The position numbers were made by a program, and so were the translations under genes. Of a stretch of DNA of 64,000 nt, positions 7,210-36,100 are shown one piece after another. Positions within the stretch are counted from its first letter, which is position 1. The number at the start of each line of letters is the position of its first letter. Below the pieces are notes generated by a model. The model was not told the DNA's origin, did no database searches, and saw only the letters and a program-made list of their open reading frames with translations. Origin of the DNA: Terebella lapidaria (taxonomy: Eukaryota > Annelida > Polychaeta > Terebellida > Terebellidae); NCBI GenBank assembly GCA_949152475.1, contig OX424564.1, forward strand, positions 27,216,165-27,280,164. Reading direction: 5' to 3'.

Positions 7210-8585
7210 TATGCTGCATATTGTTATGATTTTGAATTTCATCTTTGACCTCATTTTCAAGGTCAAAGCACAAAATGGCTCATATCTCGCTCATTATCGA
7301 AAGGCTTGGGAATTAATAGTGGACGTAGAGCATGCTGGATATTCTGATAACATTGAATTTGACCTTCGACCTAATTTTCGAAGTCACAGGACGAAATGGC
7401 TAATATGTCACTTATTTTCGACTTTACAGCTTAGGAATCAACTGTGCACACATAGGAAATGATTTATGTTGAATATTTTCATGAGCTTGAACTTAATCTT
7501 TGACCTCATTTTCAAGGTCAGATCACAAAATGGCTAATATCTGCTTATTATCGATTTTACAGCTTAGGAATCAATTGTGAACACATAAGAAATGATATGC
7601 TGAATATTGTCTTCACCTTAAATTTGACCTTATTTTCAAGTTCAAAAAACAAAATGGATAATATCTCGCTTCTTCTCGACAATATAGCTTGCGAATCAAT
7701 TGTGGACATATAGGAAATGATATGCCCCGAATATTCTGATGACCTTGAATTTGACCTCACTCTCAATGTCAAAGCACAAAATGGCTAATATCTTGCTTGA
7801 TGTTGACTTTACGGCTTGGGAATAAATTGTGGACATAAAGGAAATGATGTATGCTAAATATTTTAATGACCTTGAATTTGACATTTGGACTGATTTTCAA
7901 GGTCATAGCATAGACCTTGCTGGAGGTCTATGGTCATAGCAAAAAATGGCTAATATTTTGCTTATTATCAACTTTACAGCATGGGAATCAATTGTGGGCA
8001 TTTAGGAAATGATGTATGCCGAATATTTTGATGACCCTGAATTTGACCTTTGACCTCATTTTCAAGGTCATAGCACAAAATGGCTAATATTTTGCCTATT
8101 ATCGATTTTACAGCTTGGGAATCAATTGTGGACATATAGAAAATCATGTATGCCTATTATTTTGATGACCTTGATTTGACCTTTGACCTAAGTTTTAAGG
8201 TCATGGAACAAAATGGCTAATGTCTCACTTATTATCGACTTCACAGCTTAGAAATAATTTGTGCACATATAGAAAATGATATATGTTAATATTGTCATGA
8301 CCTTGAATTTGACTTTTGACCTCATTTTCTAGTGAACACAAAATGGCTAATATCTTGCTCATTATTGAGTTTACAGCTTAGCAATCAATTGTGTACATAT
8401 AGGAAATGCTATATACCAAATATTCTGATGACCTTGAATTTGACCAGTGACCCTATTTTCAAGGTCACGGGACAAAATGGCTAAAATTTCAAATATAAAA
8501 CACATTGATTTTGACCTCACTTTCAAGGTTTCAATATTGAATTTGACCTCACGTTCAAGGTCAGAGCACAAAATGGCTAATACAT
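7210..8585. repeat. Tandem array of about 11 GACCTTGA/AATGGCTAATAT units (about 125-135 bp each)
   Basis: Each unit runs roughly: AAATGGCTAATATCT, a TTATCGACTTTACAGCTT segment, GGAATCAATTGTGGACATAT, AGGAAATGATATATG, then TGACCTTGAATTTGACC and TTTTCAAGGTCA. Copies are diverged, and one near 7.9 kb has a short internal duplication. No unit codes for protein; open frames here are shadows. The array ends near the hairpin tail at 8.77 kb that also ends the 11.6-13.6 kb locus. Confidence 0.85.
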
Positions 8586-11561: not shown

Positions 11562-13620
11562 TACCGGACCTATGGTCCGATAACCTATTGCCGTCGCGTT
11601 GCGTCCGTCGTCCGTCCGTCGTCCGTCGTCCGTCCACATTTTTATCTTTAAAGTTTACAGGCGGATTTTCCTGAAATTTTGCACAAAGTTGCCTGAGGGG
11701 GTTATTTTTTAGTTTTTTTATTTTCGCATTTTTCTCAAAATGGCGGCCATTTTTGACGAAAAATGGCCAATTTTGGACTTTGGCGGCCATTTTCTCAAAA
11801 ACTGTCTGATCAGTTTTGAGATTTTTGTTTCAAAAGATTCCCCTTATGTACCTTTATGATGTGTATAAGTTTTGTTGCCCTTGAATCGCCGGTCTCCGTG
11901 TGGCGGCCATTTTGAATTTTTGACGGGTCGGCGAAAAAAATTTTATTTGTCCCAAATCGCGTTACTATCCATTTTGGGTCATTTCTAGACAAAAAAAAAA
12001 ATTTTCACCCTTTGAAAAAATTTTGGACTTAGAAAATTTTCGGCACTTTTTCCCTTCATAATGGGAGCTGTCCGGACTGTACTCATAGAACGCTTGAAGA
12101 TAGAGCTTAGAAATTGGCACTTTCAAATGGGAAGTCATATATGGCGACTTGTGTGGTGACCTTGAATTTGACCTTGGATGACCTTGAAAGGTCAAAACAG
12201 CCATTTTTGGGTCGAAAAACGCTCAAATTTGCACCTGGTCTGTATTTTCTCAAAAACTCTCTGATCAGTTTTGAGATTTTTGCTTAAAAAGATTCCTCTT
12301 ATACACCTCTGCAACGTGTATAAGTTTTGTTGCCCTTGAATCGCCGATCTCAGTGTGGCGGCCATTTTGAATTTTTGACGAGTCGGCGAAAAAGAAAATT
12401 TTCGCCCCAAAAAACATTACTATCCATTTTGGGTCATTTCTAGACAAAAAAAAAATTTTCACCCTTTGAAAAAAATTTTGGACTTAGAAAATTTTAGGCA
12501 CTTTTTTCCTTCATAAGGGGAGCTGCCGGGACTGTACTCATAGAACGCTTGAAGATAGAGCTTAGATATTGGCACTTTCAAATGGAAAGTCACATATGGC
12601 GACTTGTGTTGTGACCTTGAATTTGACCTTGGATGACCTTGATAGGTCAAAACAGCCATTTTTGGGTCGAGAAATGCTCGAATTTGCACCTGGCCTGTCT
12701 TTTCTCGAAAACTGTCTGATCAGTTTTGAGATTATTGTTTCAAAATATTCCCCTTATGTACCTTTATGATGTTTATAAGTTTTGTTGCCCTTGAATCGCC
12801 GGTCTCCGTGTGGCGGCCATTTAGAATTTTTGACGGGTTGGCGAAAAAAATTTTGTTTGCCCCAAATCGCATTACTATTCATTTTGGGTCATTTCTAGAC
12901 AAAAAAAAAATTTTCACCCTTTGAAAAAAATTTTGGACTTAGAAAATTTTTGCCACTTTTTTCCTTCATAATGGGAGCTGCCAGGACTGTACTCATAGTA
13001 TGCTTGAAGATAGAGCTTAGATATTGGCACTTTCAAATAGGAAGTCATATATAGCGAGTTGGGAGGTGACATTGAATTTGACCTTTGATGACCTTGAAAG
13101 GTCAAAACAGCCCTTTTGGGGTGAAAAAATGCTCAAATTTGCCTCTACAGATGAAATGCATGTAGATAGAGCTTCAGTTTGCATTATGAACATATAGGAA
13201 GTCATATTATGGAACAACTAATGATGACCTTGATTTTGACCTTGGATGACCTTGAGTGCCAAATGTCTGACTTGAAATCTTGAAAGTGGCCTCTGAAGCA
13301 TAAACTTTTGCACATACAGGTTAGGATTGTGTATAAGCCTGTAAAAAAGTAATGTATAAATGGCACATTTTTTGGTGACGTTGAACTTGACCTTAAAGAC
13401 CTTGAAGGGCGAATCTCAAAATCTGAAATTGGCCTCTACACACGAAATACTTGTTGATAAAACTTATATGTTTGTATTATGAACATACAAAGTCATATGC
13501 AGCATACCTGATGGTGACATTGAGATTCACAAAGATGACCTTGACTGGTAAATCTCAAAATCATATGTCACCTACAATGCTTGAAACCAAAATTGTCCGG
13601 TAACCTATCTTAGCCCTTGG
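11562..13620. repeat. Large repeat with short TIRs enclosing 455-bp tandem units
   Basis: The left end, GGTTACCGGACCTATGGTCC, itself folds back. The right end at about 13.59 kb, GTCCGGTAACC followed by TATCTTAGCCCTTGGGCTAA, is its inverse over 11 bases. After the left end comes a CGTCCGTCGTCCGTC microsatellite-like run. Inside, near-identical units recur with a 455-base period: TCTGATCAGTTTTGAG starts at 11805, 12260 and 12715. Each contains TGACCTTGAATTTGACCTT, GGCGGCCATTTT and a CTAGACAAAAAAAA run. The last units (13.1-13.6 kb) are more diverged. All frames here are repeat shadows. Confidence 0.8.
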
Positions 13621-19031: not shown

Positions 19032-19934
19032 TGCCGGTAAAGCGACACAGAACGATGACCAAGGTCCATAGGTCCTCCAGTGTACTTCAAGCAACAAGTC
19101 AGATTGGTGAAGAAGTTGTATTCACCAGTTCAGACTTGCATGTGAATAAGAAGACTAGACTAGAGGAGAAATACCAGGCATGGGGCGACAATAGGTAGGT
19201 TAAGAATGGGAAACACCCTGGACTAGAGTAGAGGAGAAATACCTAGTAATAGGGCGAGTGCTGACATACCCTAGATAAGAAAGATATTAAGGTGGCAGTC
19301 AGCACTCGTGTGCACAGGCAAATCCCTAAGAGCAGACAGGTACGTCATTGCCCTCTGTTAAGTGATGTAAATTATTAGGACAATTACTCTCTGCCCACCA
19401 TGCCAGATAAGCTTGACGCCCTGGCAAAGGTCCAACTATTTCTCAGTGCTCGATCCTCTACCAAGCAATTGCCGGGTGGGTAAATGCCGGTAAAGCGACA
19501 CAGAACGATGACCAAGGTCCATAGGTCCTCCAGTGTACTTCAAGCAACAAGTCAGATTGGTGAAGAAGTTGTATTCACCAGTTCAGACTTGCATGTGAAT
19601 AAGAAGACTAGACTAGAGGAGAAATACCAGGCATGGGGCGACAATAGGTAGGTTAAGAATGGGAAACACCCTGGACTAGAGTAGAGGAGAAATACCTAGT
19701 AATAGGGCGAGTGCTGACATACCCTAGATAAGAAAGATATTAAGGTGGCAGATAGCACTCGTGTGCACAGGCAAATCCCTAAGAGCAGACAGGTACGTCA
19801 TTGCCCTCTGTTAAGTGATGTAAATTATTAGGACAATTACTCTCTGCCCACCATGCCAGATAAGCTTGACGCCCTGGCAAAGGTCCAACTATTTCTCAGT
19901 GCTCGATCCTCTACCAAGCAATTGCCGGGTGGGA
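19032..19934. repeat. Recent 453-bp direct tandem duplication
   Basis: The copy starting TGCCGGTAAAGCGACACAGA at 19032 is repeated from 19485 and reads almost identically to the end; the differences I see are near CAGTCAGCACTCG versus CAGATAGCACTCG. Such identity in a region of decayed transposons means the duplication is young. The duplicated unit includes the 5' part of a Ty3/gypsy RT relic. Confidence 0.9.
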
Positions 19935-27100: not shown

Positions 27101-30100
27101 AGTGCTTACCATTTGCATAACTGGAGTTTTAGAGATTATCGCAGTAATGATATTTAAATTTATCCATGGAAGTAGGCATTGGAAGTAGGCCTACTCGCAA
27201 AATAAGAACATATTAGCAATATTATCAGCAGTCAAACCAAACTGTATAACGTCTCTGTTGATGTACTGACTGTTTTGTACGTTGGGGTTGCAGTGTGTCT
27301 TCACGGACACATAGAGTACCGCGTAACCGATCTCACATTCCTGGATAGGGCGCTTCCGATGTCTAGAAAAAAGGAGAGCATAATACATACAGGGAAATAG
27401 ACAGTACACAGCTAGGATGTGTTGCACTTAATCATTTGAATTACAATCAAATTCTTCATATGGAATATTATCAAGAAAGATATTGAACAGGTCAGACAAA
27501 AGTGATGTATTAAAAGCTAAAATTTGATTTGTGACAAGCGCTGCTAACTTTTTCAGTACACCCATCACATGTTGTATCCAATCATGGGCGTTTTTGGAGA
27601 TGTTCTGTGATTGGTCGATGAGTTCGCACGACATGACACATGACCCAGGCATGACAAGGATATCATCCTCGTTGTCATCCGATCCTTCCTCCATTAACAT
27701 TGGCGTGCCTCTGCCCAGCTCCACGGCAATACTCAGCTTCTTGAACTGAATGAAATCATGCGATTTTATTATAAAGAGTTTAGTATGCGAGCTTCCTATT
27801 TTTGATTGAGCGATTAATCCTGCTCTTGAGGGCATTGCAGTTCCAACAACAATGGAGGGTAATACGATGATGTCAGGGCTTTTGACACAGTCATTTTTCA
27901 CCTACATGGTGAACTACGATGAACTCGAAAGGAAGTTTTAACAAGTTTAAAACCAGTATTTATTACATACCTACCTCTATAATAAACACTTTGGGTAATC
28001 TTACCTTGACATTCAAAGAAGAGGAGAGGATTAGATGTCACTAAAAAATTTTGAGAAAAATTTCCGTGACATCAATCCTTAACTTTTTTGAAAAATTGAA
28101 CCAAAATCCCTTCAGATCCCATGCGGTGATGTTTTACATCACGGGTCACATGACCCTAAACCGCCATTATTTTTCTCCCGAATTAAGGCGGGGAGGTGGG
28201 AGGGCACTCTTAGTGTTTATTATAGAGGTAGGTATGTAATAAATACTGGTTTTAAACTTGTTAAAACTTCCTATTTATGTCCATACTTCTACCTCTATAA
28301 TAAACACTTTGGGTTATATCAGAATAACCACCGGCGGAGGGCTTAACCCCCCGATGTGCCACATCATCATGAGGGATTTTAGGTTCCATTTAACTCGAAA
28401 GAGGCGAAATATTGGCTTATTTGCGTATTTAGAGGTGAAGATATATACATATATGAACCACTAGGAACATTAATGCAGGCTTCCCGCGGATTAAGGTATT
28501 TACATGAACCCCGCGGGCAAGCCCGAGCAAATAAGTCATAAATGAAATAACAAAGATGATAATCACCTTAGATGCACGTGTAGGCGAGCAGGGGGGTCTC
28601 TGGAGGTGACTTTCCTCCAGCAGACGAACAGAAAATTCCCGGCAAAGAAGAGGAGCAACACCCCTGACGAGCCGAACCCTGGTGCATCTGTACAACGTGT
28701 GATGTCGATATCTACAGTATCTACAGATGGACGTTATGCTCGGCGACTACCAGTGGTCCAAGCTGGTAGCCGGAGTCGGACTTCCAGGCTAAGTCTCTGA
28801 GGTAGAAAGACGTGAAAGTATTTTGAGAACTCCAGGTACATGCCGACATCACATTATTCAAAGAGACTCGATTAGCAAATGCAAGCGACGCCGCGAGAGC
28901 CCTCACATCATGAGCCTTCACTTTGAAACCCTCGGACTTCTTTGCTTCAGATTGCTCGTAGCAAAAAAGAACGCATTTCTTTATCCAAGCCGAAATCGTA
29001 GCCGGACGAATATCGTTTGGAAAATCTTTAAGGTACGATACGAAGAGAAGACGTTTACCCAAGTGAAGTTCCCTCGTCCGCCTAACGTAGATGCGGAGAG
29101 CTCTCACGGGGCAAAGTTTAGAGTCTTCCTCCAGGCCTGGCCCCAGGGAAGGAGCTAGGGCCGGGATGGAAAAGGAAAGGAGCGGCGTTCCCGCTAACTG
29201 AGTTTTAGCCAGAAAGGACGGGATGACACCTAACTGAACTGCGGAAAAATCCGCCTTCCATTTGACTTTGGAAAACGCGAGCACATGAAGCTCACTTCGA
29301 CGCTTCCCGGAAGCCAGTGCCAGGAGGAAGACCGTTTTCCACGTGAGGAACTCATACGAAGCACTCTCGAGAGGTTCAAACGGATCAGATCTGAGCGAAT
29401 TTAGGACAAGCGATAGATCCCACTCCGGAACGGGATTCCTAGTCTTAGGCCTTTCAATATCGAAACTGTTCAGCAGGGCAGTAAGACTCTGGTCATGACC
29501 GAAATCGATCCCTAACTTAGGCTTCAGGGTTTTGGCGATCGCCGTCCGATAACCCGCAAGAGTTGAGGGGGCGCGCCCTTGATTGAATTTCTCAAGAAGA
29601 AACTCAGAAATCAAGGGGGCAGTGGTCTTGAATGGAATAACCTTCCGGCTACGACACCAAGCGCAGAACGCTGTCCATTTGGATTGGTAAACTGCCAAAG
29701 AAGATTTTCTATTTGATCTGGTGATCCTAGCGGACACCTCCTTTGAAAATCCCTTCTTTCGGTAACATCGCTCGACAATATCCAAGCATGAAGCTTCAGA
29801 CTTGCGGGGACGGGATGAAAGATGCTGGATCGAGGTTGTTTGAGAAGATCCCAACGATCCGGAAGCTGACGTGGATTGTCCACCAGAAGCTCCAGAAGGT
29901 CCGGGAACCAAGGTTTCTGGGGAAGGCAGGGAGCTATGAGAAGCAGTCGACACTGATGCGACCGAAACTTCGTTAGCACCTTCTCCACTAGCACTGCTGG
30001 AGGATAGGCAAACGCGTACATCCCTTGCCAACTCGTGGACATCGCGTCCACCGACATAGCCAAGGGATCCGGAATCGGCGATACAAACGATGGGAGCTTG

Positions 30101-33100
30101 TGGTTCCACCGCGTGGCGAACAGATCTACCATCGGGGTTCCCCATAGGCCGCAAAGCGTGCGGAACACCTCGGGGGAGAGACTCCATTCCATGGCCTGAA
30201 TCTGCCCCTTCCGAGACAGACGATCGGCCCACACGTTCATGTGACCCGGAATGTGGCGAGCGGCAATCAGAATGGCATTCTGATGAAACCACTGCAGGAG
30301 CTCGATAGTGGCCTGACATAACGTCACTGACTTCGTTCCGCCCTGCTTGTTGATATAAGCTACCACCGTGGAGTTGTCTGTCGCCAACAACACCACTTGA
30401 CCACGGAACTGAGACTGCCAATGACGCAGCGCTAGGGAAACAGCCTCCAGCTCGAGAACATTGATATGACACTGGCGCTGTTGCGCTGACCACGTGCCCG
30501 AGATCTCGTTGCTGTCCCAATGCGCACCCCATCCCTCCAAACTGGCATCCGTAAAGAGATGCCTGGAGGGCAACGGCGGACGGAACGGCGCTCCCCGAAA
30601 CAAATTGGTCGGGCACCGCCACCACTCCAGCTCCGCTTTTACTTCTGGGGAGACTGGAATCAACTCCGACAAGCGGCCGGTCGTCTGCGACCAACGCGAC
30701 TGAAGATAGAGCTGAATGGGACGCATGTGAAGTCTGCCCATAGGCACGAGCTTCTCCATTGCCGCAAGCATTCCCAAGAGAGATTGCCACCTGCGAGCCG
30801 TCTGTGGAAGGCCTCGACGGAAACCTTCTGACAGCACGGATAATTTTGACTGACGGTCCGCCGTCGGCAACACAGTCTCTGAGGTAGTCAGAAACCGATA
30901 CCCCAAGAACACGAAGTCGCGCCGCGGAGACAAATCAGACTTTTTGTGGTTGATCTTGAAGCCTAAAGTAACACGGATCGAACCTGCTCCGCCGTCTCCA
31001 TGGAGAACGTCGGAATCTGAAGAAACTTGTTCAACGGGGAGAGATCGATGACGGGACGCCAACCCCCTGAAGCCTTGGGAACCACGAAAAGAACGCTGTA
31101 AAAACCGGGCGTGTCCGGAGCCGGCTCAACCGCCTGTTTGTCTATCATGGCCAAAATTTCTTCGTGCAAAACGCGCCGACGCTCGGAGTCGCTTGATAAC
31201 GAGAAACCTCTCGGAGTGCCTGAGAGCGGAGGAAATTGATCCTCGAATTTCAGGCCGAACCCTCGTCGGAGTGTCGAGACGACCCAGGGACTCGCCCCCA
31301 GACGCTCCCACTCTCGCCAGAAAGGCTGCAGCCGTGCCCCCACGGGTTGATCTATGACTGGAACGACCACGGAACCAACCCCTGGATCGCCACGGCAACC
31401 CCGAGGAGAATTCGACCCAGCGTCTACGGCAATACCTACCCTTTGACTTGCCTTCCCCTGCTGGTTTGGGAGAAGAAGGACGTCCTCGACCTCGGGCGCC
31501 TCGACCTCGTCCCCCACGGGCTGTACCAGCAGGGGCCCCACGAAAGGGCACACCAGAGGCTCGGCCTCTGCCCTTCGTAGGAGCCCCACCTCGCTGACTC
31601 TGTTGGGAAGGTTGCTGCTGCGGACGTTTCATCACGGCCGCCACGGACTTGGCAAGCCTCTCGGTCGCCCGGGCCGACAGCATGGCATCCTCAGAAAAGG
31701 ACTTCTCCGTCGTACGCTTGTCTGAAGCTGTCTTGGCCTTCTGAAGCTCCTCGGACTCATCCGGGAGAAGAAGAGCGGGAGATGGGCCCGATTCCGGGAC
31801 AACCGGCGCTAGTCGTAACCGTGACATGAGCTCGTCGGGAATGTCGAACCGCAGGGACTGGAGGTACGCGTCCCGTCTCCACAGCTCCGTAACCCAAAGA
31901 GCATGGGAGTCGAGAGCCGCCTTATCCGCTACCCCGAGGCCTATCGACGTCACCAACGAAGCACAAGCCTGAAGGGCATCCGCCAGATCATCGCGGTCAA
32001 GCTCGGGATTGTTCAGGACCTGATCACAGCAGGATTGTAAGGAGGTTCGGGCCGCCATAGACAGCCAATCCAAGGCAGAATCGGTCGCCAGGCCCAAACG
32101 CACGGAGTGTTGAACTTGTGCCAACGAATCCCACTGCACAGATACCGTCTTTGGTTCCGAGAAGAAAGCCGCGTGCGGTTGGCCCTTCAATAACTGCGTG
32201 GGCTTTGCCTCTAACTCCGACGAGGAGTAGAAGTCCCGAATGGAAGGACGAGCTGGAAAGGAACCCGGACGAATCCTGTTAGAGTTTAGGGAGTCATCCC
32301 GGCGTTCAGCCATCGCGCCCCGGACCCCGGTTGCCAGCGGGAAGCGGAAAGAGTCTCGAGATGGTCTCGGCTTCTCCTTCAGACCGGCAATCATAGAGCG
32401 GGCCTTCTTCTTGGGCGGCTCCTGAGCGAAGCCCTCGGGCCACTCCTGGGGCAAGATCTTACGGACGAACTCCATCTTCTCCGGCCACGACAACGGATCA
32501 TCATCAGGGGCAGGAGGAGCCAGAGCAGAATCGTCGTCCTCTCGCGGGCGCTTAGCTGGCCTGATGAGACCCGACGAACAGGGCTGAGGTTCCAAGTCCG
32601 AGTCCTCCGTCAAGGGACGAATCCCGGCTTCCTGAAGGGCGGGAGCCTCACCGTCCTCCGAGGACGACTTCCGGGAAATGCGCTGAACAGGAGGAGGAGG
32701 GGGCACACTCTGACGCTGCGCCTCCCGTTCGTGGGCGAAACGCGACAGGAACGTGCTCCACTGGTCACACATCTCTCGAGTGAAGGAGGCAAACTCCCGC
32801 CTGAGCCCAGCTACATCCGAGGATGGGGCAGGACGAGAAGGAGACGGAAGCGGGGATGTCACTACCGAGACTGTCGCCAATTCCGAGTCCGCAGTAGCCG
32901 CTTTCGACGCAGGGGTCAAAGCAGGCACGTCCGGAGGAGATTCGCCAGTGTCTTCGGAAATCTGAAACCGACAAGGCGAAGTAAGGCGAAAAGAAACCGA
33001 TTTCTTAAGAGAGGGAGCTCTCACGGAAGCCCCTCGGCCCAGAAACGTAGCAATTGGAACCCGGGATCCCAATTCCCCCCTACCGGCAGGCGGGAAACGG

Positions 33101-36100
33101 AACCCGGAACCCAGGTGGTGCCCGGGAGGCGAGAACCCCAACGGGCGGCAGCTGGGGAAGCGAGAGAATCCCCCGGGAGGTCGCATAAGACCCGGGGAAA
33201 ACAAAGCCTCCACCTTGCCCAAAGTGTCCCAGGACCCGGGAGCCGAAGGCACGGCTCCCGCCACCCGCGAGACAACACCTGGGAACCGGGGCCCGAATTG
33301 CTCGGCCTGCGCAGCGCGAGAACCGGGAACCACCGGGAGAAGGTGAGCCGAAAAGGAAGCAACCGAAACTCCAAATAAGCCTGAGGGGCTTACGAGAGAG
33401 CTCGAAGCAGAGACACCAAGAGGGGTCTCGGGGGCCGCCTAAACGGCACCCGGGACCCGGGAACCTGTGGAAGAAAGACATAAGTCAAAACTAACATCTC
33501 GAATTATCCTGGCGAGGACAACATCCTGCCGGTTCCATCTATCTACTGCCTGCCTATGTCGGGACCTAGAGGACGCGGAGGATCCTGACCCAAGGGGCGG
33601 GCCATCTGCCTGGCGCTTGGCCAGAACCTGCTTGAGGCCAGCCAGGGTGTCGATCCACACGTCCGATGACCAGTCCACGCAGAACTCACAAGTGTCAGTC
33701 GGCCGACAATACGCCATGCGGCACACCCAACACGTAGCGTGACGTTCCCATTTGGGCAGAAAATGGTGACAACCACTGCACTTCATCTGAAACAGAACAT
33801 GCAGTGGGCGAAAATAAGGGAAGAAATGGGCCTGGGGAGGACTACACCATTTCCTCCCAAAAAAATTGCACTAAAGACAAACTAGACTAAACTAGCTGTA
33901 GTACAGTAGTGAAAAAACCACAAGAGATCGTAGAAAACGATCGTGAAGAAGTAAATCCTCAGTTGAATGTCTAAGCAAGACTTGCAACACAACCATCCAA
34001 GATGGAGGAGCAAAAATAATGGCGGTTTAGGGTCATGTGACCCGTGATGTAAAACATCACCGCATGGGATCTGAAGGGATTTTGGTTCAATTTTTCAAAA
34101 AAGTTAAGGATTGATGTCACGGAAATTTTTCTCAAAATTTTTTAGTGACATCTAATCCTCTCCTCTTCTTTGAATGTCAAGGTAAGATTACCCAAAGTGT
34201 TTATTATAGAGGTAGAAGTATGGACATAAATAGCAAGATTTTTAACTTTTCTAAATCAAATTTGTGAGTCTCACATGTTAAAAATTCAGCTTTTTTTCAT
34301 GAGCACAAACCTGTTTTGCATTGAGGAAGATGAAGACATTGCCTTGGAACACCGTGGCTCGCCGTGGATCGGGCTTGAAGGAGACCTGCGTCGGGTCCAA
34401 CTGTGACTCGGCCAGGGGTGGCAGGTAGCTGGAAAAAGTGGCAACAAATTCTAGTGAATACCGTGAATTGATACCACTTGGGTATACTGTAGATAACCAC
34501 TCATGAGGCATCGTTACCATTACAGTTGATTTGATAGGTAAACAAATATTGTAAAAGGTGATTATTTCGCGGGGGTTTAAATTTCATGATTTTTCAACAG
34601 TACACAAAAATAAAACCTCGTCAATATTTTGTTCATATTGATACGATATTCCTGTTGGGCTGAATTCGAGACATTTAAACCCCATGAAATGGTCTGACAC
34701 CCAAATACACATTTAAACCCTCAGGAATAATCTTGTTTCACAGTATACAATTACATACACAAGTAATGCAAGAAATTGTCAACATATATCATGATTGAAA
34801 ACATACGAACTTACTCTTCACTCTTTGGTTGTTGTTTATTTGTGTCAATAGACTTCACTAAGTCCTCCAGGTAGTCAGGAGTCACAATTGGCCGTTGCGT
34901 GATCATGGCACATATCGCCTTTAAAAAAACAGTGGGCAAGAAGGCAAAAAGTACGTGTTACAATGTATGACTGGTATTGATGGGCCGATTATCAATTTTT
35001 TTCGAAAATCAGTAGAAAAAACGATTTCGATAATCGATTCGAAAATTACATAATCGATTATCGCGAAAAAAAATCACAAAATCACGAAGTTACATCGAAC
35101 CATAATGGTAGAAATATATGTCAGAAAGAGTCACGATTTGATGTGGTGAACTTGGCGTGCCATCTGGCGAATGGAAGACGAAAATACCATTGCATGGTTG
35201 TCATATTTTTCAAAAAACTTTCTCAAGGAAATGTCCGAAAATAGCACAGATGATTCTGTGGAACGGAGGCGTTCTAAAGTATGAAATTACTTTGGTTCAT
35301 AGCGGTTTCGCACTATAAAGCCATGCTGTAGTCGTAATTGCCAATGAACAGATTATAATCGATGATCAGTTGGTTCGACACACCGATTTTAAACGATAAT
35401 CGATTTTAAAATCCAAACCCATTCCCATCAATTATGACTGGTAATGGTAAAATTAATTCTGATATCGTGAAAACTAGAATGGCATTCATACAGCGAAAGA
35501 AAAGTAAAGGCTCACAACATACCTTGATAGTTATACTAAGGGTGTTCATTATCAGAAGCTTGCAGTTTTGCCGCCATTCATTTGTCACATGACCTCCAAG
35601 CTGACCAATGAGCTGTCTTGTTTTTTTCTTCCCGGGAACATCGAGACAGGAGGTTGTTGTAAGATAAGATTCGTATTTTGCCCTGAGGACAAGACAGAAG
35701 TATGAAACTCTTAAATCATTCTGATGCAAAAACTGTATGTTTTATTCATCAAAATAGTTTATTTCTATTGCTGATGCTTGACATTTTCTTCGCTCTTCTA
35801 AACATATTGCTTTTCAATAAACCAAATCCTGAAATCGAAATAATCTTGTAACCACCACATTTATAAATGAAAGTAAACATCACTGTGAAAAAATGACTCG
35901 CTGACCTGTATCGACTGATGCCAGCTGTACCGAACACCATCACGCTCCCCTCGCTGACGACACACTTGTCCTTGATGACCCTCGTCTCCCCGACTAGAGT
36001 GCCCAGTCTGGAGAGGTCAGTCAGCGTCAGGATCGGCAAACGCTGTGGGTTCACCTGTTATGGTAAGAGATAATAAAACTAAAACCCCAGGTGGGATACA

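Follow-up and report, generated by a model that had tools for sequence, protein, structure and literature searches.

A disabled DIRS1-like retrotransposon in a nibrin intron of Terebella lapidaria, and a second DIRS family with the same left end

The stretch of DNA analysed in this study, called the window below, comprises 64,000 nucleotides of the annelid Terebella lapidaria (assembly GCA_949152475.1, contig OX424564.1, positions 27,216,165 to 27,280,164 of the forward strand), and its first letter is position 1. The window contains a 6303 bp copy of a DIRS1-like retrotransposon (27930..34232, minus strand), which lies in an intron of the nibrin gene and belongs to a family that we call family A. 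The nibrin intron (27746..34310, minus strand, GT-AG, phase 0) was placed by exon matches and splice sites and lies between ...NVFIFLNAKQ and FKKLSIAVEL... in the translation. An exon in 27428-27901(-) matched nibrin (PDB 8bah_C residues 232-299, E=2.8e-4), and an exon in 34278-34583(-) matched the start of NIBRIN_BRCT_II at E=0.0067, under the cut-off of that model. With the element removed, the intron measures approximately 262 bp. An earlier note, made from the letters of the window, had proposed a DIRS retrotransposon in a nibrin intron and in the orientation of nibrin, and the terminal repeats, the internal complementary region, the nibrin exon matches and the common minus strand bore this out. 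We regard the location and the common orientation as those of a single insertion with no sign of function, and no effect on nibrin is claimed.

The element ends in inverted terminal repeats (ITRs). The left terminus in forward coordinates, which is the 3' end of the element, occupies 27930..28174 and consists of an outer part (27930-27970) and the conserved ITR (27971-28174). The right terminus, which is the 5' end, occupies 34012..34232, with the conserved ITR at 34012-34215 and two sites, 34134 and 34138, that are diagnostic of subfamilies. The terminal repeats were checked for divergence and none was found, the conserved ITRs being complementary at 204 of 204 bases, as the earlier note had read them. 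The internal complementary region (ICR, 28212..28317) has a left part (28212-28272) and a right part that runs to 28317, with the circle junction inside. The left part was the same as the left end at 61/61 bases and the right part the same as the right end at 46/47; the proposed exact joining of both outer ends thus held on the left and was one base off on the right. The two parts join at ATA, the 3-bp circle junction. The ITR, a spacer and the ICR together form a terminal module (27930..28318), which is common to a second DIRS family, called family B here.

The ends of the element were set by comparison with other copies, and the uncertainty of 27930 and 34232 is the 3-bp core. A-N-A was found directly before the left end in nine of nine flanks, namely those of the window copy and of eight family B copies (L001-L008); these nine leave out a left-end-like match in L066, which also had ATA before it, and the ICR matches of L001-L008. 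The right ends of the fetched copies read AAATA followed by any base; the row of L058 was dropped, as its right end lacked the search motif. Ends and flanks fit insertion at a short core without target-site duplication, and the A-N-A and AAATA ends together with the ATA junction indicate the integration scheme described for DIRS1-like elements. According to the available text of PMC3266345, these elements recombine at a 3-bp core and make no target duplication, and they are like the window copy in their ITRs, in the two ICR parts at a 3-bp circle junction and in their content of gag, tyrosine recombinase (YR) and reverse transcriptase (RT)-RNase H-methyltransferase. The SkoDIRS1-2 element of the same source (6052-6283 bp, conserved ITR of 202 and 142 bp, Table 3) is near the window copy in size and ITR length. 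In L045 and L051, near 2382 in each, a family A copy stopped exactly where another DIRS left-end-like sequence started (AAATA then GGAAGTTT...). These two copies look as if they had been inserted at the end or the circle junction of a relative, and hybrid ends could result from such tandem arrangements.

The protein-coding frames of the window copy all lie on the minus strand. The gag frame, taken from stop to stop (31126..33870), is interrupted by an amber codon, TAG, at 33439..33441 and ends at a second stop (31126-31128) that is silent in the RT frame. The pol frame is in two pieces, the RT fingers part (30963..31628) and the remainder (29611..31125), in which RNase H is followed by a part that we take to be methyltransferase-like by a motif; it had no library match. 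The names fingers, YxDD and TDAS for motifs of the pol frame are likewise our own assignments. The YR frame (28721..30934), which codes for a tyrosine recombinase in the place of a DDE integrase, starts after a TGA at 30935-30937. RNase H matched Pfam PF00075 at E=2e-4 and 22 bits, under the curated cut-off of 25.8 of that family, and YR matched PHROG integrases over its C-terminal part (approximately 28802-29101; E=2.8e-4 and 3.3e-4). Pfam at E 0.01 gave no match for gag, YR or the RT fingers. A PDB search with the YR frame returned three matches with E of 0.87-1.3, which were judged to be chance. The two pieces of pol are split by a loss of 301 nt, with the junction at 30968..30973 and a microhomology of five bases, GTAAC (30968-30972), and the RT palm with its YxDD motif is absent from the window copy. 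The missing palm and the amber codon in gag had both been pointed out before, and both are real features of this sequence.

Relatives of the element were searched for in the genome (761.6 Mb, 438 contigs). The best 40 of 724 candidates were scored in the left-end search, the best 40 of 824 in the RT-region search and the best 40 of 74 in the gag-side search, so all copy counts are lower bounds. Family A had at least 27 loci at approximately 95% identity or more, including the window. For the RT deletion, 29 fetched loci were compared beside the window, of which L034 and L035 were dropped as they had no usable flank. The RT segment was kept in all 27 fetched loci with both flanks. Compared with the window junction, 23 loci had exactly 301 extra bases, one had 302 and one had 287, while L037/L038, which represent one locally duplicated relative, had 1084 with the piece taken and 300 with the nearer piece, by coordinates. 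In eleven further listed copies, known by their match coordinates alone, the pieces on either side of the deletion also lay 301 bases further from each other than in the window copy. The gag amber site was a sense codon in 28 of 29 other loci and a gap in one, and a gag stop of the whole family with readthrough was rejected on this ground. Siblings often had open frames: fingers, YxDD and TDAS, as we recognise them, stood in a single frame in 19/27 sibling stretches, and in 16/26 siblings gag ran over more than 600 codons without a stop until the fetched stretch ended.

Because the RT deletion and the amber codon occur nowhere else among the fetched loci, both lesions look private to the window copy. 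The earlier note had left two alternatives, damage to one copy and a mobile non-autonomous subfamily with the same RT deletion. Nothing was found in support of the subfamily, and with the deletion at 0/27 fetched loci, the amber codon at 0/29 and the junction also missing from the eleven further copies by coordinates (among the best 40 of 824 candidates), we consider it very improbable. The private lesions, together with the private substitutions described below, point to damage to a single copy, not to a mobile RT-less subfamily.

Two groups of loci in this sample deserve a description of their own. L035, L059 and L060 (contig C1, approximately 19.973-19.980 Mb) are repeats of parts of a single internally deleted DIRS copy and have the same right flank, which indicates local duplication after insertion. 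L037 and L038 (contig C13, approximately 30.85 Mb) belong to a relative that is approximately 83% identical in the RT region, and this region is tandemly duplicated.

Outside the deleted segment, comparison of 4243 internal sites (29769-34011) gave 16 substitutions that were private to the window copy, and comparison of 220 sites of the right ITR gave none. At the private rate, 1.5 differences between the two ITRs would be expected, and the probability of finding none is P=0.21. A decay of a few tenths of a percent would therefore still allow identical ITRs, and ITR identity as proof of extreme youth was rejected. At sites 33881, 34134 and 34138, read in 26 loci and the window, eight loci had AAA, five loci and the window had AAT, and 13 loci had TTT. 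Sites 34134 and 34138 are both A in L067 and L068, two copies that are more distant; AAA is therefore the older state and the window copy is intermediate, placed by these sites outside the youngest ITR subfamily. The earlier wording of a "very recent" insertion was therefore too strong.

The variants in gag were sorted into silent and non-silent changes, and variants present in exactly two copies were excluded from the counts. Variants shared by three or more copies were 24 silent to 8 non-silent, singletons were 74 silent to 118 non-silent (p=0.0002), and those private to the window copy were 3 silent to 7 non-silent (p=0.02 against the shared ones). This is the pattern of selection while the element replicates and of neutral decay once it is inserted.

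A copy with such lesions could also have been born defective: a template switch at the 5-bp repeat would have given an RNA without the palm, which the proteins of intact siblings then packaged, copied and inserted. The five bases of microhomology at the deletion resemble those that accompany jumps of reverse transcriptases, siblings with open frames exist, and family B points to mobilisation of defective DIRS RNAs. Against this, no other copy examined has the deletion, and the 16 private changes, with the 3:7 ratio in gag, point to decay in place. We consider a defective birth a possible but rather unlikely history. It is less plausible still that the RT gap is an assembly error in which 301 bases were collapsed at the 5-bp repeat. 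Young interspersed copies are at risk of misassembly, and it was the assembly, not reads, that was analysed; however, a 5-bp repeat is short for a collapse, and the copy has its private substitutions on either side of the junction and flanks of its own. Damage to this one copy remains the reading that we prefer.

The left-end search, which used 205 bases, also led to family B. Of the best 40 of 724 candidates, 12 lay at family A places by position, and the other 28 lay away from known family A places and were all 100% identical over 205 bp. Eight of these 28 copies (L001-L008) were read. In all eight, the sequence corresponding to 27930-28318 was identical to the window copy at 388-389 of 389 bases. 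Beyond the module, the same copies showed 421-428 differences in 1222-1229 sites (approximately 35%), so that the similarity between A and B has its edge just past the ICR. The bodies of the eight copies diverged from each other by a mean of 0.56% in pairs, and their flanks were unrelated, which indicates that they are separate and recent insertions. The recombinase of family B had 35-38% amino acid identity to that of the window copy and was broken in every one of the eight copies, a pseudogene that they share, with 4-6 stops in the main alignment in 8/8 and six in-frame stops in 6/8. In L001, the one copy read for this purpose, both the tyrosine and the H-x-x-R arginine were replaced; we take these residues to be catalytic. 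In one copy outside family A, the left end (C2:7622167) and a gag-like piece (C2:7628377) were 6.2 kb apart, and from these match positions family B may be approximately 7 kb long.

The family B copies cannot have been inserted by a recombinase that had already lost its function when the family spread. Family A is the only family seen with the same end and open genes, and for this reason we believe that it would be the helper. The best reading of family B is that of a putative non-autonomous DIRS family that was mobilised in trans via the termini of family A. Mobilisation in trans had been suggested earlier for the window copy; it found no support for a subfamily with the deletion of that copy, and it seems to occur in a different family with the same left terminus.

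The identity of the A and B termini might instead result from selection or gene conversion acting over the whole 389 bp, and not from a recent exchange. Some constraint does exist, since the ITRs of L067 and L068 were approximately 88% identical and the adjoining 150 bases 70-78%. However, these two copies differ from family A by 12% in the ITR, whereas family B differs by 0-1 base in the module despite its 35% difference in the body; the body stretches in this comparison are not the same, being the YR end for B and the gag end for L067 and L068. The right ITR of family A itself has 16 variable sites among the copies. In addition, all 28 matches outside family A carry the AAT state at 34134 and 34138, which can be said of all of them because the left-ITR counterparts (28052 and 28048) lie within the identical 205 bases; family B thus carries at 34138 the derived state that one A subfamily has. 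Constraint or conversion over the full module is in our opinion an improbable explanation, and a recent exchange is preferred.

Since neither L067 and L068 nor the AAA copies have the derived state at 34138, the exchange would fall in the AAT period of family A. It may have run from A to B or from B to A, and the order AAA, AAT, TTT within A favours A as the donor. We propose the following history. The tyrosine recombinase of family A would have inserted the element at an A-N-A site in the short nibrin intron without target duplication. At or after the insertion, the amber codon in gag, the further private stop and the microhomology-flanked 301-nt deletion of the RT palm would have disabled the copy. 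The terminal module would be the working cis part of family A, and B may have obtained the A module by a template switch of reverse transcription between RNA of A and old RNA of B. The proteins of family A would then have copied and inserted B.

Overall, we are fairly confident that the window holds a moderately young family A copy that was disabled by private lesions, and that family B, which has the left module of A, seems to have been copied and inserted by A proteins. Several points weigh against this account. The loci are not all independent, because L037 overlaps with L038 and a single duplicated stretch contains L035, L059 and L060. The singletons of other copies possibly include sequencing and assembly errors. 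A private deletion cannot date the loss, which would look the same whether it arose later or already during reverse transcription, so that the copy was defective from birth and received help in trans. The eight family B copies read, out of 28, were the pick of the tool among ties, and the dependence of B on A is deduced from the left 1.7 kb of B.

Pairs of a defective and an autonomous family are well known for long terminal repeat (LTR) elements. Dasheng and RIRE2 are reportedly such a pair of LTR retrotransposons, in which the ends of the defective, non-autonomous family are also those of a putative autonomous partner, and this arrangement is like that of B and A. In contrast, the shared ends of A and B are a DIRS ITR and ICR, the enzyme of integration is a tyrosine recombinase, and B seems to retain a long relic body. 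One study has shown, in the available text, that during bursts of LTR retrotransposons recombination between copies returns old members to circulation (Sanchez et al. 2017, PMC5668417). Exchange between copies is common to both cases; in that study, however, it took place within one family, whereas A and B match in the terminal module only and have bodies that differ by 35%. For DIRS1-like elements, no counterpart of B, that is, a partner family with a shared terminus and a dead recombinase, was found in the available text of PMC3266345. No description of non-autonomous or recombinant DIRS elements was found in the sources available, including the text at hand of PMC9210276 and PMC12477816, a weak negative from a search mostly outside the subscription literature and with no repeat database.

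We lean slightly towards the view that a long-dead DIRS body became mobile again via the 389-bp module of a live family, and that an ITR and an ICR alone suffice in cis for foreign DIRS proteins to replicate and insert it. If this is true, nature has carried out a complementation experiment on the DIRS replication cycle. The dead recombinase and the shared terminus would separate the cis sequence of DIRS elements from their proteins, and they can define the requirements of the unusual ITR/ICR replication scheme. By itself, the window copy is an ordinary decaying element of a known kind.

The siblings of the window copy also bear on how the recombinase is expressed. In many of them, the gag frame runs on without a stop towards the YR frame, with pol inside at +1, in a comparison that covers the element down to 29769. 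Of the 29 fetched stretches (approximately 33000 down to 29769), 14 ran open past 1100 codons and the other 15 did not. In one sibling with an overlap of 720 codons, the gag-YR frame had no stop, compared with a mean of 26.7 after shuffling of synonymous pol codons (0/2000 shuffles reached zero). Shared variants in the overlap were silent in pol in 16/22 cases against 50/146 for singletons, and 18 of the 22 were non-silent in the gag-YR frame, one of them the shared TGA at 30935-30937; variants in exactly two copies were excluded here too. This indicates that pol is the constrained protein, and that the gag-YR frame stays open although its residues are under little constraint. The 15 stretches that were not open count against a single gag-YR frame, and so does the TGA at 30935-30937 before the YR frame, which was present in the window copy and in 4 of 24 siblings (L010, L020, L029 and L033), in three subfamilies. 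Its recurrence may reflect repeated loss of a CpG. Piednoel et al. (2011, PMC3266345, available text) describe DIRS1-like elements with three open reading frames and, for half of the 28 that were annotated, a long overlap of pol and YR. Unlike these, many family A siblings have gag and YR in one open frame with pol nested at +1, and no description of such a continuous frame was found in the available text of PMC3266345, PMC9210276 and PMC2685390. The gag-YR frame, which in many siblings is open across approximately 720 codons of pol, suggests expression of the recombinase as a gag fusion and of pol via a +1 shift.

In the window, neither tRNAs nor Rfam matches at the gathering score were found. 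A 453-bp unit in two tandem copies that are 99% alike lies at 19032-19933, with no open frame of 60 amino acids or more wholly within it. Tandem arrays were also present at 7244-8484 and 11789-13142, with units of approximately 127-165 bp and 455 bp (3.0 copies, 89% matches).

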